A stretch of DNA of 38,402 nt from a virus. The notes under the pieces were generated by a model. The model was not told the origin of the DNA and made no database searches. It saw only the letters and a program-made list of their open reading frames with translations. The position numbers were made by a program, and so were the translations under genes. The stretch covers positions 1 to 38,402 of the IMG/VR virus record IMGVR_UViG_3300021364_000064, one strand, 5' to 3'. Of this stretch, positions 2,823 through 33,218 are shown piece after piece. Each line of letters opens with the position of its first letter. The stretch's first letter is position 1.

Positions 2823-3314
2823 ATGGCAAGAAGAAAGACAGAAAACTATGTAAACAACAGAGACTTCCTAGATGCTCTGATGGTTTATCGTAAAGAGGTT
2901 GCTGAAGCAGAAGCAAACGGTCAACCGAAACCTCGCGTCCCTCCTTATATTGGAGAGTGCTTTCTTAAGATTGCGACACACTTGTCATACAAACCAAACT
3001 TCGTAAACTACATGTTTAGAGAAGACATGATTTGCGATGGTATTGAAAACTGCTTACAATATATTCACAATTTTAATCCAGAGAAGTCTACTAATCCTTT
3101 TGCATACTTCACTCAGATTATCTACTTTGCCTTTCTTCGCCGTATCTCTAAAGAAAAGAAACAGTTAGAAATCAAAGCAAAGATTCTAGAGAAGTCTGGT
3201 TTTGATGAAGTTTTACATACAGACAGCCACACTGGCGACATGGCAGGTTATAGTAGTAGCTCCTCTGACTTGAATAGCATCAAAGAGTCCCTTGAGATTA
3301 GATACAAACGATGA
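2823..3314 (+). CDS. 55: gp55, late-transcription sigma-like factor
   Basis: 163 residues; T4 gp55 has 185. It directs host RNA polymerase to TATAAATA late promoters and in T4 is activated by clamp gp45. The sequence has a basic start, the PPYIGECFLKIATHLS region, and a sigma region 2-like core with CLQYIHNFNPEKSTNPFAYF followed by IIYFAFLRRISKEKK. This matches region 2.2-2.4 of gp55 and other sigma factors. The C-terminal tail is serine-rich. An AAGGA ribosome site lies upstream, and the stop overlaps the gp47 start (ATGA). TATAAATA motifs in this window at 13724, 24785, 25804, 32853 and 38154 are its expected targets. Confidence 0.9.
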   Translation: MARRKTENYVNNRDFLDALMVYRKEVAEAEANGQPKPRVPPYIGECFLKIATHLSYKPNFVNYMFREDMICDGIENCLQYIHNFNPEKSTNPFAYFTQIIYFAFLRRISKEKKQLEIKAKILEKSGFDEVLHTDSHTGDMAGYSSSSSDLNSIKESLEIRYKR

Positions 3315-25777: not shown

Positions 25778-25782
25778 TTCAT

Positions 25783-25804
25783 GGGGGCGCAAGCCCCTTT
25801 TTTT
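25783..25804 (+). terminator. Rho-independent terminator
   Basis: GGGGC (25784-25788) and GCCCC (25793-25797) form a perfect stem closed by a GCAA tetraloop (GNRA class), followed by seven T. Its T run merges into the next late-promoter box. Confidence 0.85.
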
Positions 25805-25811
25805 ATAAATA
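25804..25811 (+). promoter_or_regulatory. TATAAATA late promoter of the Ig-domain virion gene
   Basis: An exact T4-type late box directly after a terminator and 37 bases before the ATG at 25848, which has AGGAG at 25833-25837. This is the cleanest late promoter in the window. Confidence 0.75.
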
Positions 25812-27996: not shown

Positions 27997-28988
27997 GTTT
28001 TATTGATTCCAAATATATTAGTTTGGTCTCTCCTCAACTTACAAACTTCACACAAAAGAAAAAAAGTTTATACAATTTCAGGTGTCCATATTGCGGCGAT
28101 TCTCAGAAGAGAAAAAACAAGTCGCGTGGATACCTGTTTCAGTATAAGGACAGTCATGTCTATAAGTGTCATAACTGTGGTGTGAGTAAAAGTTTTGCTA
28201 AGTTTCTGCAGGATATCAGTGTTGGTTTGTATGACCAATACATTATGGAGAGATACAAAGAAGGCACGACTGGCAAAGGTCGGAGAGTAGCAAACCCTAA
28301 GTTTGAGTTTAAGACTCCAGTCTTCAAAGAGAAAGAAACAACCACTACAGTTTTAGATTCTCTAGAAAAAATCTCAGACCTAAATACTTCACATCCAGCA
28401 AAAGCATATCTTCTTCAACGCCAAATACCAGAGACTCATTTCTCTGGAATCTATTACACAGAAGATTTCAATGCCTGGGAAGATAACGGAAATAACTTTA
28501 AGGAAGCAAGAATTGTTTTACCGCTGCTATCCCAGTCAGGGAAATTATATGGATACCAAGGCAGGTCACTGGACAAGAATTCCAAGCTTCGATACATTAC
28601 AACCATTCTCGATAAACGCTATCCGAAACTATATGGTCTAGAGCGCATACAATTTGATAGCACCATCTATGTAACAGAGGGTCCAATCGACTCTCTTTTC
28701 TTGTCTAATGCCATTGCGATGTGTGGTGCAGATGTTACGCTCGACAAAGACATATATAAGGACCGTGTGTTTATCTATGACAACGAGCCAAGAAACAAAC
28801 AAATCGTGCAGAGATATGAAGCAACGATTAATCAAGGTGAGAAGATTGTCATTTGGCAACCAAATGTTAAGGAGAAAGATATTAATGATATGGTCCTAGG
28901 TGGACGTGATGTCCAACGTATGGTAGAATGTAGCACCTACCAAGGCTTAGAAGCAAAACTAAAGTTTAACGAATGGAAGAAAATATGA
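27993..28988 (+). CDS. 61: gp61, DNA primase
   Basis: 331 residues; T4 gp61 has 342. It makes RNA primers for lagging-strand synthesis with helicase gp41. The N-terminal zinc-binding domain is CPYCGDSQKRK ... YKCHNCG (about 30-56). The TOPRIM catalytic core has YVTEGPIDSLFLSNA (acidic Glu and following Asp) and VFIYDNEPRN. The gene starts in an ATGA overlap with the coiled-coil gene and ends in an ATGA overlap with nrdA. Confidence 0.93.
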   Translation: MSFIDSKYISLVSPQLTNFTQKKKSLYNFRCPYCGDSQKRKNKSRGYLFQYKDSHVYKCHNCGVSKSFAKFLQDISVGLYDQYIMERYKEGTTGKGRRVANPKFEFKTPVFKEKETTTTVLDSLEKISDLNTSHPAKAYLLQRQIPETHFSGIYYTEDFNAWEDNGNNFKEARIVLPLLSQSGKLYGYQGRSLDKNSKLRYITTILDKRYPKLYGLERIQFDSTIYVTEGPIDSLFLSNAIAMCGADVTLDKDIYKDRVFIYDNEPRNKQIVQRYEATINQGEKIVIWQPNVKEKDINDMVLGGRDVQRMVECSTYQGLEAKLKFNEWKKI

Positions 28989-31303
28989 GCAACGGTATCA
29001 AAGTAAAAAAGCGTGACGGGTCCCAAGAGTCGATTAACCTAGACAAGATTCATACGATGGTCGAATGCGCCTGTGAGGGTCTTGCAGGGGTGTCTCCGTC
29101 GCAAGTAGAGATTCAATCGGGTATCCAATTTTATGATGGTATTACCACCGCAGAGATTCAAGAGATTCTTGTCCGCTCTGCTAGTGACCTTATCGACCTA
29201 GAGAATCCTAACTATCAATTTGTTGCTGCTCGTCTGCTTCTGTTTGGTCTGTATAAACAAGTCTTTGGTGGTGACTGGAAGCATGGATTCCCTACCCTTG
29301 GAGCACATCTATGTGAAGGTATTACAAAAGGTATCTACGACAAGGAGCTCGCAACTAAATATTCTGACGAAGAGTGGTCTAAACTAAATTCTTGGATTGA
29401 CCACCATCGTGATTATTTGTTTACCTATGCTGGTCTACGCCAGGTGGTAGATAAATACCTTGTGCAGGACCGTAGCACTGGGTCTCTATACGAAACTCCC
29501 CAGTATGCATACATGCTGGTTGCTGCTACTATCTTCGCAGAGTATCCAAAAGAGACGAGACTCAATTATGTCCGAAGATACTACGACGCAATCTCGAAGC
29601 ACCGAATCAACGTTCCCACACCTATCCTGGCGGGAGTGCGAACTGCACTTCGACAATTTGCTAGCTGTGTGCTTGTTGATTCTGATGACACCCTCGATAG
29701 CATCTTTAGTTCTGATATGGCTATCGGCAGATATGTTGCACAAAGGGCGGGCATCGGTATCAACGCAGGCAGAATCCGTGGCATCAACAGTAAAATCCGA
29801 GGCGGAGAAGTTGCACACACAGGTGTTATTCCATTCCTCAAAAAGTTTGAGGCAACTGTCAGATGCTGCACTCAAAATGGCATACGAGGCGGAAGCGCGA
29901 CTGTCCACTTCCCAATCTGGCACAAAGAAATCGAAGACATTCTAGTCCTTAAGAATAACAAAGGGTCTGAAGATAATCGTGTCCGAAAACTAGATTATAG
30001 TATTCAGATTTCTAAACTCTTCTATGAGAGATTCATCAAAAACGAGCACATTACTCTCTTCAGTCCGCACGACGTGCCAGGTCTGTATGATGCTTTTGGT
30101 ACTCCTGGATTTGATAATCTATATCGAGCTTACGAGGGTGACCCAGATATTCCTCAAAAGGCAATTGGTGCCCAGGAGCTTATTCTGGACCTTCTGAAGG
30201 AGAGGGCAGAGACTGGTCGGATGTATATTATGAATCTTGACCACTGCAATGAGCACTCCTCATTCAAGGACAAGGTAAATATGTCCAACCTGTGTCAGGA
30301 GATTACCCTGCCTACCAATCCCCTTCAGCACATTGATGACCCTGAGGGTGAGATTGCTTTGTGTATCTTGTCTGCTATCAACGTAGGTAAGATTAAAAAC
30401 TTTGATGAGATGGAAGAGTTGTGTGACCTCTCAGTGAGGGCACTTGACGAGTTGATTGATTATCAGCACTATCCTGTCCTTGCTGCAGAGACCTCTACTA
30501 AGAATCGTCGCTCATTGGGCATCGGTTATATTGGTCTCGCTCACTTCCTTGCGAAGAATGGTCTCAAGTATTCTGAGAGAGCAGCAGCACAGATGGTCCA
30601 TGACCTGACGGAAGCATTCCAATACTATCTTCTCAAGTCTTCCAACACGTTGGCGAAAGAGAAAGGTGCTTGTGGATACTTTCATCGCACGAAGTATTCT
30701 GATGGAATTCTTCCGATTGATACATACAAGAAGGATGTCGATGATATCGTAAGGAATGATTTGAAGTATGATTGGGATAGTCTTAGGGCATCTATCACAG
30801 AGCACGGTCTCCGAAACAGCACACTGTCCGCACAGATGCCTTCAGAGAGCAGTTCCGTTGTGTCAAATGCAACCAACGGAATCGAGCCACCCCGTGCCTT
30901 CCTGTCCATTAAGAAGTCAAAGAAGGGAGTCCTCAAGCAGATTGTCCCTCAATATACAACTCTTAAAAACGTATATACGTTACTTTGGGACATGGAGTCT
31001 AATCATGGTTATATTAATATTGTTGCTGTGATGCAAAAATTCTTTGACCAGGCGATTAGTGGTAACTGGAGTTACAATCCAGAAAACTATCCAGACAATG
31101 AAGTCCCAGTTTCTGTTATGGCAGAAGATTTCCTGAATACTTACAAGTATGGATGGAAGACCTCTTACTATCAGAATACATATGATATTAAAAAGGACGC
31201 AGACGAGGACGAAACCGATAAGAAAAAATCAGTAGAAAATTTACTAAACTCAATCCTAGACGGAGCACCAGAGGAGGAAGATTGTGACAGTTGCAAAATT
31301 TAA
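28985..31303 (+). CDS. nrdA: NrdA, class I ribonucleotide reductase large subunit
   Basis: 772 residues from ATG 28985, in an ATGA overlap with gp61; in-frame ATG 28973 would add four. T4 NrdA has 754. It reduces ribonucleotides to deoxyribonucleotides. An N-terminal ATP-cone (KVKKRDGSQESINLDKI to about residue 90) provides allosteric control. Active-site elements include SCVLVDSDD, NLCQEITLP and, at the C-terminus, the CDSC redox pair that accepts electrons from thioredoxin or glutaredoxin. All appear intact. It is coupled to nrdB. Confidence 0.96.
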   Translation: MSNGIKVKKRDGSQESINLDKIHTMVECACEGLAGVSPSQVEIQSGIQFYDGITTAEIQEILVRSASDLIDLENPNYQFVAARLLLFGLYKQVFGGDWKHGFPTLGAHLCEGITKGIYDKELATKYSDEEWSKLNSWIDHHRDYLFTYAGLRQVVDKYLVQDRSTGSLYETPQYAYMLVAATIFAEYPKETRLNYVRRYYDAISKHRINVPTPILAGVRTALRQFASCVLVDSDDTLDSIFSSDMAIGRYVAQRAGIGINAGRIRGINSKIRGGEVAHTGVIPFLKKFEATVRCCTQNGIRGGSATVHFPIWHKEIEDILVLKNNKGSEDNRVRKLDYSIQISKLFYERFIKNEHITLFSPHDVPGLYDAFGTPGFDNLYRAYEGDPDIPQKAIGAQELILDLLKERAETGRMYIMNLDHCNEHSSFKDKVNMSNLCQEITLPTNPLQHIDDPEGEIALCILSAINVGKIKNFDEMEELCDLSVRALDELIDYQHYPVLAAETSTKNRRSLGIGYIGLAHFLAKNGLKYSERAAAQMVHDLTEAFQYYLLKSSNTLAKEKGACGYFHRTKYSDGILPIDTYKKDVDDIVRNDLKYDWDSLRASITEHGLRNSTLSAQMPSESSSVVSNATNGIEPPRAFLSIKKSKKGVLKQIVPQYTTLKNVYTLLWDMESNHGYINIVAVMQKFFDQAISGNWSYNPENYPDNEVPVSVMAEDFLNTYKYGWKTSYYQNTYDIKKDADEDETDKKKSVENLLNSILDGAPEEEDCDSCKI

Positions 31304-32468
31304 GTTAAACTCAGAAGACAAACCTAAAGTAGATGGCATGACGGTATTCAATCCGAATCATGTCAACACAAAAAAACAACCTATGTTTTTCGGTGCTCCT
31401 CTTGGAGTCCAACGTTACGACAATTTTAAGTATCCTGTCTTTGAGAAACTTACTCAACAGCAACTAGGTTACTTCTGGAGACCTGAAGAGGTTTCCCTTC
31501 AAAAGGACAGAGCAGACTATGCACAACTACGCCCCGAGCAGAAGCATATCTACACGTCGAATCTTAAATACCAAATCATGTTGGATTCTGTACAAGGGCG
31601 TGGTCCTGGGATGGCTTTTATCCCTTACGTTAGCCTACCCGAACTTGAGGGGGCTATGACTGTATGGGAGATGATGGAGATGATTCACTCCCGCTCGTAT
31701 ACATATATTATTAAGAATGTCTACTCTGACCCCACCGAAGTGTTTGACACCATCCTAGATGATGCTAACATTATGGAGAGAGCGAAGAGCGTTACTCAAG
31801 CATACGACGACTTCATCCGTGCAGCACAGCAATACGGTAACAGTAATGACTGGCAGCACGCTCAAGAAGGTGTATACTATGCTGAAGAGCAACTCTATGA
31901 GCTCAAAAGGAAACTCTACAAGGCAGTCGTCAATGTCAACATCCTGGAAGGAATCAGATTCTATGTCTCTTTTGCTTGCTCGTTTGCGTTTGGTGAGCTC
32001 AAAATTATGGAGGGATCCGCTAAAATTATCTCTCTCATCGCCCGAGACGAAAGCCAGCATCTTGTCCTTACTCAAAACATCATCAACAAATGGCGTGATG
32101 GGGACGACCCTGACATCCTTAAAATCGCTAAGGAAGAAGAGCAGTGGACGGTAGAGCAATTCAAGCGCACTGTTGATGAAGAGAAGAAGTGGGCGGAATA
32201 TCTCTTCAAAGATGGTAGCATCATCGGTCTCAATGAAAAACTACTCAGCTCCTATGTTGAGTATATTGCTAACCGTCGCATGAGAGCAATCGGTCTCAAA
32301 CCAGTTTTCGACACTCCCATGTCTAACAACCCCCTACCCTGGACGCAGCACTGGCTGTCCTCTAAGGGTCTACAAGTCGCTCCTCAAGAGACAGAGGTGG
32401 AATCATATGTAATTGGTGGTATTAAACAAGATGTCAAAAAAGATACCTTCGCAGGATTTCAACTATGA
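31284..32468 (+). CDS. nrdB: NrdB, class I ribonucleotide reductase radical subunit
   Basis: 394 residues; T4 NrdB has 388. It provides the tyrosyl radical through a di-iron centre. EMIHSRSYTYII contains the metal-binding Glu and His and the radical Tyr, as in E. coli NrdB. RDESQHLVLTQNII provides the second Glu-x-x-His pair. The start is GTG 31284, with GGAGGAAG at 31272-31279; no upstream ATG fits, and it overlaps the nrdA end by 20 bases. The C-terminal FAGFQL peptide should dock onto NrdA. Confidence 0.95.
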   Translation: MTVAKFKLNSEDKPKVDGMTVFNPNHVNTKKQPMFFGAPLGVQRYDNFKYPVFEKLTQQQLGYFWRPEEVSLQKDRADYAQLRPEQKHIYTSNLKYQIMLDSVQGRGPGMAFIPYVSLPELEGAMTVWEMMEMIHSRSYTYIIKNVYSDPTEVFDTILDDANIMERAKSVTQAYDDFIRAAQQYGNSNDWQHAQEGVYYAEEQLYELKRKLYKAVVNVNILEGIRFYVSFACSFAFGELKIMEGSAKIISLIARDESQHLVLTQNIINKWRDGDDPDILKIAKEEEQWTVEQFKRTVDEEKKWAEYLFKDGSIIGLNEKLLSSYVEYIANRRMRAIGLKPVFDTPMSNNPLPWTQHWLSSKGLQVAPQETEVESYVIGGIKQDVKKDTFAGFQL

Positions 32469-32850
32469 GTTTGAGGTAGTCTTCGATAAAGAAAAGGAGA
32501 CTACCTTACAGAAAATTAAGAGGTGGATTGCAAAAAAGCAACCACCTCTTAGAACAGTGTTGGAGCATTTATTTTCTTTTGTAGAAAAATGGTATTGGGA
32601 AGGTAAAGAATTGCAAACCAAGCATCGGATAGATCAACAAGTAAAATACATTGGTAAGATATGGGAAGAGGAAGATGAGCGCAACAGACAACCAATCGTG
32701 GAAGAGGGACCTTCTAGCGTGCCCAACCTTCCCACTCTCAGAATTAGAGCTCCGTTTGTTGAGGGAGGGACCGAAGAGTCTGGCACAAGCGTGGCACCTC
32801 CAAGCACTAAGATACAAATACCTGACCCGTGGGACGACCCATTGATGTAA
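32431..32850 (+). CDS. Hypothetical protein with proline-rich tail
   Basis: 139 residues from ATG 32431 (in-frame TTG 32413 is an alternative), overlapping the end of nrdB by 38 bases in another frame. The N-terminal 90 residues are helical and basic (KIKRWIAKKQPPLRTVLEHL, KWYWEGKEL). The rest is disordered and Pro/Ser-rich, ending IPDPWDDPLM. No family is recognised. The late-promoter hairpin begins three bases after the stop. Confidence 0.55.
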   Translation: MSKKIPSQDFNYEFEVVFDKEKETTLQKIKRWIAKKQPPLRTVLEHLFSFVEKWYWEGKELQTKHRIDQQVKYIGKIWEEEDERNRQPIVEEGPSSVPNLPTLRIRAPFVEGGTEESGTSVAPPSTKIQIPDPWDDPLM

Positions 32851-32852
32851 CC

Positions 32853-32885
32853 TATAAATACCTCCAGTGATGGGGGTATTTTTTT
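32853..32885 (+). promoter_or_regulatory. Late promoter embedded in an RBS-masking terminator hairpin
   Basis: TATAAATA at 32853-32860 is an exact late box. AAATACCTCC (32856-32865) pairs with GGGGGTATTT (32872-32881), one wobble, around a six-base loop, followed by T to 32885; the ATG is at 32886. The GGGGG of the 3' arm is the only ribosome site for that ATG. Upstream transcripts would terminate or be masked here, while a late transcript starting near 32866-32868 would lack the 5' arm and be open. Confidence 0.7.
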
Positions 32886-33218
32886 ATGCGACCGCAATCT
32901 GCGAAAGCAAAAGGAAGAAGATTGCAGCAGTGGGTGAGAGAGCAGTTGATTGAAAAACTGAATGTCCACCCCGAAGATATTGAGTCACGCAGCATGGGTG
33001 CTGGTGGTGAAGACCTCATCATGGCACGGGCAGCTAGACAAAAGTTTCCTCATAGTATAGAATGTAAGAATGTAGAGAAACTCAATATCTGGGATGCCTA
33101 CGAGCAATCTGCTGCTAACTGTGGAGACTATGAGCCGATAGTTGTTATCAAAAAGAATGGTAAAAAACCTTTGGTTGTAGTTGATGCAGAATACTATATT
33201 CAAATGTTTAATAAATGA
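32886..33218 (+). CDS. PD-(D/E)XK endonuclease, resolvase-like
   Basis: 110 residues. After a basic start (AKAKGRRLQQWVREQL) come SRSMGAGGEDLIMA, with the catalytic Asp, and FPHSIECKN, the ExK element, then NIWDAYEQS, an arrangement typical of small Holliday-junction-resolvase-type nucleases. T4 uses the unrelated gp49 for this job, so this could be its functional substitute. Expression control by a late promoter within a hairpin is also what T4 gene 49 uses. The substrate is inference. Confidence 0.75.
   Translation: MRPQSAKAKGRRLQQWVREQLIEKLNVHPEDIESRSMGAGGEDLIMARAARQKFPHSIECKNVEKLNIWDAYEQSAANCGDYEPIVVIKKNGKKPLVVVDAEYYIQMFNK

Follow-up and report, generated by a model that had tools for sequence, protein, structure and literature searches.

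Does a T4-type late promoter that lies inside a hairpin, directly ahead of a start codon, hold the downstream gene back until late infection? We asked this of a leader in the virus record IMGVR_UViG_3300021364_000064, whose 38,402 nt (positions 1 to 38,402) are referred to here as the window. The window is T4-like cyanophage DNA and carries genes for gp55, the sliding clamp gp45, clamp loader, RegA, DNA polymerase, UvsX, helicase, primase, nrdA and nrdB. The leader follows nrdB and an ORF of phrog_6464, and precedes a gene for a nuclease-like protein of 110 aa (Table 1). Late promoters within hairpins that sequester the ribosome-binding site are known from T4 genes e, soc, 49 and I-TevI/II/III, and also from segB and Aeh1 mobE (PMC3014915, PMC2988022). 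An earlier note on this DNA had invoked the T4 precedent, rightly so: published work describes this mechanism for e, soc, 49 and I-TevI (PMC3014915), and the leaders of e and 49 match the layout. Our analysis suggests that the leader is a variant of the e/49 switch to which a terminator has been added, and that this variant recurs in marine T4-like phages.

Table 1. Positions of the leader elements and neighbouring genes in the window.
Feature	Position	Strand	Basis or remark
gp55-like late sigma factor gene	2823..3314	+	phrog_234, 4e-68; presumed reader of the late box
nrdA-nrdB	28973..32468	+	presumed origin of read-through RNA; early/middle timing presumed from T4
phrog_6464 ORF, unknown function, upstream of leader	32413..32850	+	stop 5 nt ahead of hairpin
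T4-type late promoter box TATAAATA, positions -13 to -6	32853..32860	+	exact match
Hairpin 5' arm AAAUACCUCCA, overlaps late box	32856..32866	+	fold and pair counts
Predicted late +1	32866..32866	+	predicted from T4 box spacing, -13 to -6
Hairpin loop GUGA	32867..32870	+	fold
Hairpin 3' arm UGGGGGUAUUU	32871..32881	+	fold
Shine-Dalgarno-like GGGGG, 9 nt ahead of ATG	32872..32876	+	sequence
U-tract of intrinsic terminator, seven T	32879..32885	+	sequence and terminator scan
Start codon ATG	32886..32888	+	sequence
110-aa putative nuclease gene behind leader	32886..33218	+	phrog_244 'RusA-like Holliday junction resolvase', 9e-21

The hairpin consists of 11 pairs, 32856-32866 with 32871-32881, including one G-U pair. 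The earlier note had described an exact box overlapping a ten-pair hairpin; the exact box and the overlap were borne out, and the stem has 11 pairs, not ten. The GGGGG that it had placed in the 3' arm, followed by T residues and the ATG, is also there, with UAUUUUUUU between the GGGGG and the ATG at 32886. The leader shows two traits of the e/49 type, a late box overlapping the 5' arm and a Shine-Dalgarno (SD) sequence (32872-32876) paired in the 3' arm. The local fold of 32850-32890 has an energy of -14.3 kcal/mol (z -3.65), which none of 200 shuffled sequences equalled. In addition, the hairpin has the form of an intrinsic terminator, a GC-containing stem followed by a U-tract. A terminator scan of the surrounding 9.6 kb (28.8-38.4 kb) ranked it first and was otherwise near background, with 10 terminators found against 7.1 expected.

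T4 late boxes occupy -13 to -6 (PMC1524935), so that transcription is predicted to start at 32866. The 5' arm ends with this base, and late RNA would therefore be unable to form the hairpin. As in T4 e and 49, the late box lies in the 5' arm, the SD in the 3' arm and the late +1, here a predicted one, beyond most of the 5' arm; the gene likewise closes a block that is transcribed earlier. The SD is predicted to be unpaired with a probability of 0.00 in read-through RNA and of 0.41 in late RNA beginning at 32866. The same two values were obtained for S-PM2, and 0.00 and 0.28 for T4 e.

We propose, with a probability of roughly three in four, that the late promoter, the terminator and the SD mask are three interleaved signals of one late-only switch. 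RNA reading in from nrdA-nrdB would fold the hairpin and terminate at the U-tract just ahead of the ATG, and in RNA passing the terminator the 3' arm would keep the ribosome site paired. In the late phase, RNA polymerase with gp55 would initiate near 32866, where the 5' arm ends. The late RNA, devoid of the 5' arm, would carry no terminator and would leave the GGGGG free 9 nt ahead of the ATG. From this arrangement we infer the start site, the termination efficiency, the translational masking and the late timing. The genes for gp55 and gp45 in the same window count in favor of a late switch, and the position after nrdA-nrdB is suggestive with respect to an early read-through RNA that is poorly translated. 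Translation of the upstream ORF ends at 32850, 5 nt ahead of the hairpin, and the terminating ribosome could disturb the hairpin. The arm sequences themselves may be set by these constraints, with AAATA of the box pairing with UAUUU of the spacer between SD and ATG, and CCUCC with GGAGG. If the arms are dictated in this way, the nearly identical arms of T4 gene e (AATACCT/AGGAGGTATT) would be explained.

A late box could arise by accident in such a place. A-tracts before and U-tracts after the stem are common in terminators, and the A-rich flank of a plain bidirectional terminator might resemble TATAAATA by chance. The counts make this very improbable. Exact copies of TATAAATA number 6 in the window against 1.56 expected, all on the + strand, which also holds all 13 of 13 ATAAATA heptamers. 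We then scored a joint layout, namely a stem of score at least 20 overlapping the box, an SD-like motif in the 3' arm and a start codon just beyond, with 20 permuted heptamers in the same sequences (7,174 sites) serving as controls. The layout was found at 1 of 13 boxes in the window, at 1 of 59 in phage Sf-FR1, ahead of the same gene, and at 2 of 65 in T4, those of genes e and 49, against 0 of 7,174 control sites. The joint test thus recovers the published T4 cases and picks out nothing among the controls. A third T4 stem with a box falls outside solely by the absence of a start codon beyond the stem; its ORF is presumably I-TevI. Among 64 strong terminators of four cyanophage sequences, seven, from four gene families, have an interleaved late box, against an average of 0.4 for permuted heptamers in the same terminators; the count for strong terminators of T4 is 0 of 19. 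The box is also tied to real downstream genes. In IMG/VR leaders with a hairpin and an ATG, collected without requiring the box, [A/C]T precedes AAATA in 13 of 16 families whose downstream ORF reaches 100 aa or more, versus 4 of 22 families with shorter ORFs (p 2e-4). Finally, the box is retained in relatives where its pairing is lost, as described below.

Homologous leaders from 80 IMG/VR loci and 19 phage records were compared over the 75 nt upstream of the start codon, and the 83 distinct leaders were scored for an ATG-adjacent hairpin and a late box ([A/C]TAAATA). Hairpin and box occur together in 40 and are both absent from 36, with three leaders having the hairpin only and four the box only; three of these four are weaker forms of the same hairpin. 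The Fisher p of 1.6e-15 for co-occurrence is no true probability, because the leaders are related and the counts non-independent. Judged from these leaders, the box and the hairpin are kept or lost jointly across relatives. Among isolates, S-PM2 and Sf-FR1 are examples with the element, and Syn1, S-RIM44, S-CAM1, S-CAM3 and others are without it. Since several relatives carry the nuclease-like gene with neither box nor hairpin, the switch is dispensable.

Across 30 distinct leaders with the hairpin, pairing between the arms is 93%, compared with 50-64% when the arms are slid, and they change on both sides (CUCC/GGAG, CUCC/GGGG, CCCC/GGGG, CUUC/GAAG). TAAATAC is invariant and the U-tract position U-rich in 30 of 30. 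In the GATAAATA group, the 3' arm is shifted from GGTATTTTTTT to GGTTTTTTATT, breaking the pair to one box base, the T, which is unpaired in 12 of 30 leaders, and the box and U-tract persist. The box thus appears to be kept for more than pairing, as a promoter would be, and the U-tract likewise, as a terminator would be. The comparative evidence supports the box, the SD mask and the terminator. Alternatively, the leader might only mask, in the manner of T4: early RNA would pass, the hairpin would keep it untranslated, and the U-run would serve as a spacer. The geometry is that of T4 e and 49, and a 100-fold repression is reported for gene e (PMC3014915). Nevertheless, seven consecutive U follow the stem directly, and the U-richness outlasts the complementarity to the box. 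Unlike the window leader, those of T4 e and 49 have no U-run and therefore no terminator signature. We regard masking alone as unlikely.

The opposite emphasis is that the hairpin mainly ends the nrd transcript, with a late promoter fitted into the A-rich flank on its 5' side and SD masking incidental. The stem and U-tract are canonical. In S-B68 and S-CREM2, a box and a terminator stand ahead of the same nuclease-like gene with no SD in the 3' arm, and the terminator at that place is an unrelated sequence. In S-PM2 and Sf-FR1, the box, as GATAAATA, lies in a terminator loop ahead of a gp13-like gene. On the other hand, the 3' arm contains a G-rich SD in essentially all IMG/VR cases. G and C are swapped between the arms in 1 contig versus at least 119 in the native orientation, a number dominated by gp13, which favors an SD placed inside the 3' arm. 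In addition, T4 e and 49 are masks with no U-tract. A leader that is foremost a terminator is a candidate with a chance well short of even; a switch in which all three signals act remains our preferred reading.

The earlier note would have abandoned this switch if box or pairing were lost in close relatives. Among the leaders compared, the outcome is mixed: the hairpin stays, and the A at -12 of the box has become C in many. The variant, NCTAAATA, is present in about half of the hairpin leaders. CTAAATA is weakly concentrated upstream of genes in cyanophage sequences (4 of 88, versus 28 of 178 for ATAAATA). It is probably a weaker or alternative late box and not a loss of the promoter, because Aeromonas phage Aeh1, whose gp55 is divergent (PMC1524935, PMC2988020), has CTAAATA, starting at -12, as its published late consensus (PMC1524935), and because this heptamer also recurs ahead of homing-endonuclease genes. 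A separate clade of homologous leaders (L030, L066, L069) has no late box, and an A+T-rich hairpin, TATAGCTTAAATTTAAAGCTATAAT, abuts the same start codon there.

The downstream gene had been called a resolvase-like nuclease that matches the role of T4 gene 49 with an unrelated protein. PHROG 244 provides a RusA-like label. Pfam gives no RusA domain; PDDEXK_15 is the only match, sub-threshold at 0.0024, even at E up to 10. The S-B68 homologue matches PDDEXK_15 at threshold level (3e-6), and E42-D43 and E59-C-K61 are invariant. The structure model is too poor for use (pLDDT 51). The 110-aa protein looks weakly PD-(D/E)XK-like rather than RusA-like. The Endonuclease_7 domain of gene 49 (PF02945) gave no Pfam match to it at E up to 10, and the proteins are in this respect unrelated, as the note had said.

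The gene might nonetheless be a functional analogue of gene 49, an unrelated resolvase brought under the same control since late timing of resolvase matters. T4 gene 49 has a leader of the same kind, the 110-aa gene is a putative nuclease, and 16 of 19 phages carrying it have no endonuclease VII match. Against this, S-PM2 and S-CREM2 have both the nuclease-like gene and an endonuclease VII homologue, which also rejects a simple replacement of endonuclease VII by the 110-aa nuclease. Many phages have the gene with no switch, the device also stands ahead of neck, tail and homing-endonuclease genes, and the resolvase activity is putative. Because the device also stands ahead of unrelated late genes and S-PM2 has both nucleases, the gene 49 role claimed earlier is unsupported, and an analogy of function is quite improbable.

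The neck gene gp13 (phrog_211) has a leader of this form in dozens of IMG/VR contigs and in isolate S-SCSM2R. Such leaders also precede tail-fibre, tail-tube, baseplate hub, terminase and several homing-endonuclease genes, and in the 178-kb contig G001 AATAAATACCCCCGTAAGGGGGTTTTTTAATG stands ahead of an 869-aa ORF. A high-copy repeat within one genome was considered and rejected: a single TAAATACC-N-GGTATTTTT was found across 19 phage genomes, so it is the layout that recurs, with different sequences. A scan of cellular genomes gave 22 scattered hits. Marine T4-like phages may possess a general class of self-cancelling terminators, in which a late promoter in the stem or loop before a late gene lets read-through RNA be stopped and its own RNA pass. 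Such elements would have arisen repeatedly and would serve as recombination joints too, insulating genes and shuffling them. We advance this generalization tentatively, at somewhat less than even odds. A self-cancelling terminator would be a simple and testable answer to how cyanophage late genes are kept off replication-block transcripts. If true, ocean phages apply the strategy of T4 lysozyme and gene 49 to genes of the neck, the tail and mobile nucleases as well, and the late-box hairpin would offer a means of recognizing late genes in metagenomes by sequence. In T4-like phages, genes for GIY-YIG and HNH homing endonucleases (L349, L433, L423 and others) repeatedly carry a late-box hairpin, with ATAAATA or CTAAATA; T4 I-TevI has one as well.

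The leader can be set beside other phage elements. Composite promoter-terminator cassettes of T4-like phages, the PeSLs, were reportedly described by Arbiol in 2010 and Comeau in 2014, as cited in PMC4503421. A PeSL is a stem-loop paired with an early promoter. Like a PeSL, the leader is a composite of stem-loop and phage promoter between genes and a possible recombination joint (locus L185); unlike in a PeSL, its promoter is late and inside the stem. In a scan of 28.8-38.4 kb, no sigma-70-like early promoter was found at the leader position, which separates it from the PeSL class. Cyanophage late promoters of the form NATAAATA are known from S-PM2 and Syn9, and cyanophages are without the MotA/Asi middle-transcription system of T4 (PMC2984593). 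The window shares their box and the expected gp55/gp45 machinery. Unlike those promoters as described in the open-access papers covered, its box overlaps a hairpin and terminator. The gene it serves is unrelated to gene 49, unlike in the T4 switch, and the device is found before structural genes too. In the open-access papers covered, we found no report of a late-promoter hairpin combined with an intrinsic terminator in cyanophages, nor of one ahead of structural genes. The e/soc/49/I-TevI switch and the NATAAATA promoters of cyanophages are known already; the added terminator and the use before structural genes are, within that scope, new.

Terminator and late promoter also occur in tandem. 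At 25780-25811 of the window, a terminator stem (GGGGGCGCAAGCCCCT) and T run are followed directly by TATAAATA, ahead of a head-protein gene (phrog_613), and this order is also present in S-PM2, Sf-FR1, G001 and T4. Relatives differ greatly in the interval between nrdB and the RusA-like gene (32413-32850 in the window; its counterpart in L081-L099), an insertion hotspot adjoining the hairpin cassette. The window has phrog_6464 there, Syn1 and S-H9-2 have other ORFs, and P-TIM40, S-WAM1 and P-RSM6 have talC and 2OG-Fe(II) oxygenase genes. On the minus strand of locus L185 (4200-7313), two copies of the cassette lie ~2 kb apart, with a methyltransferase-like and a radical-SAM-like ORF between them. 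The first copy is fused via the first RusA-like codons (ATGCGCTCACAA) to a duplicated C-terminal tail of nrdB. A block of genes seems to have been inserted here through duplication at the cassette.
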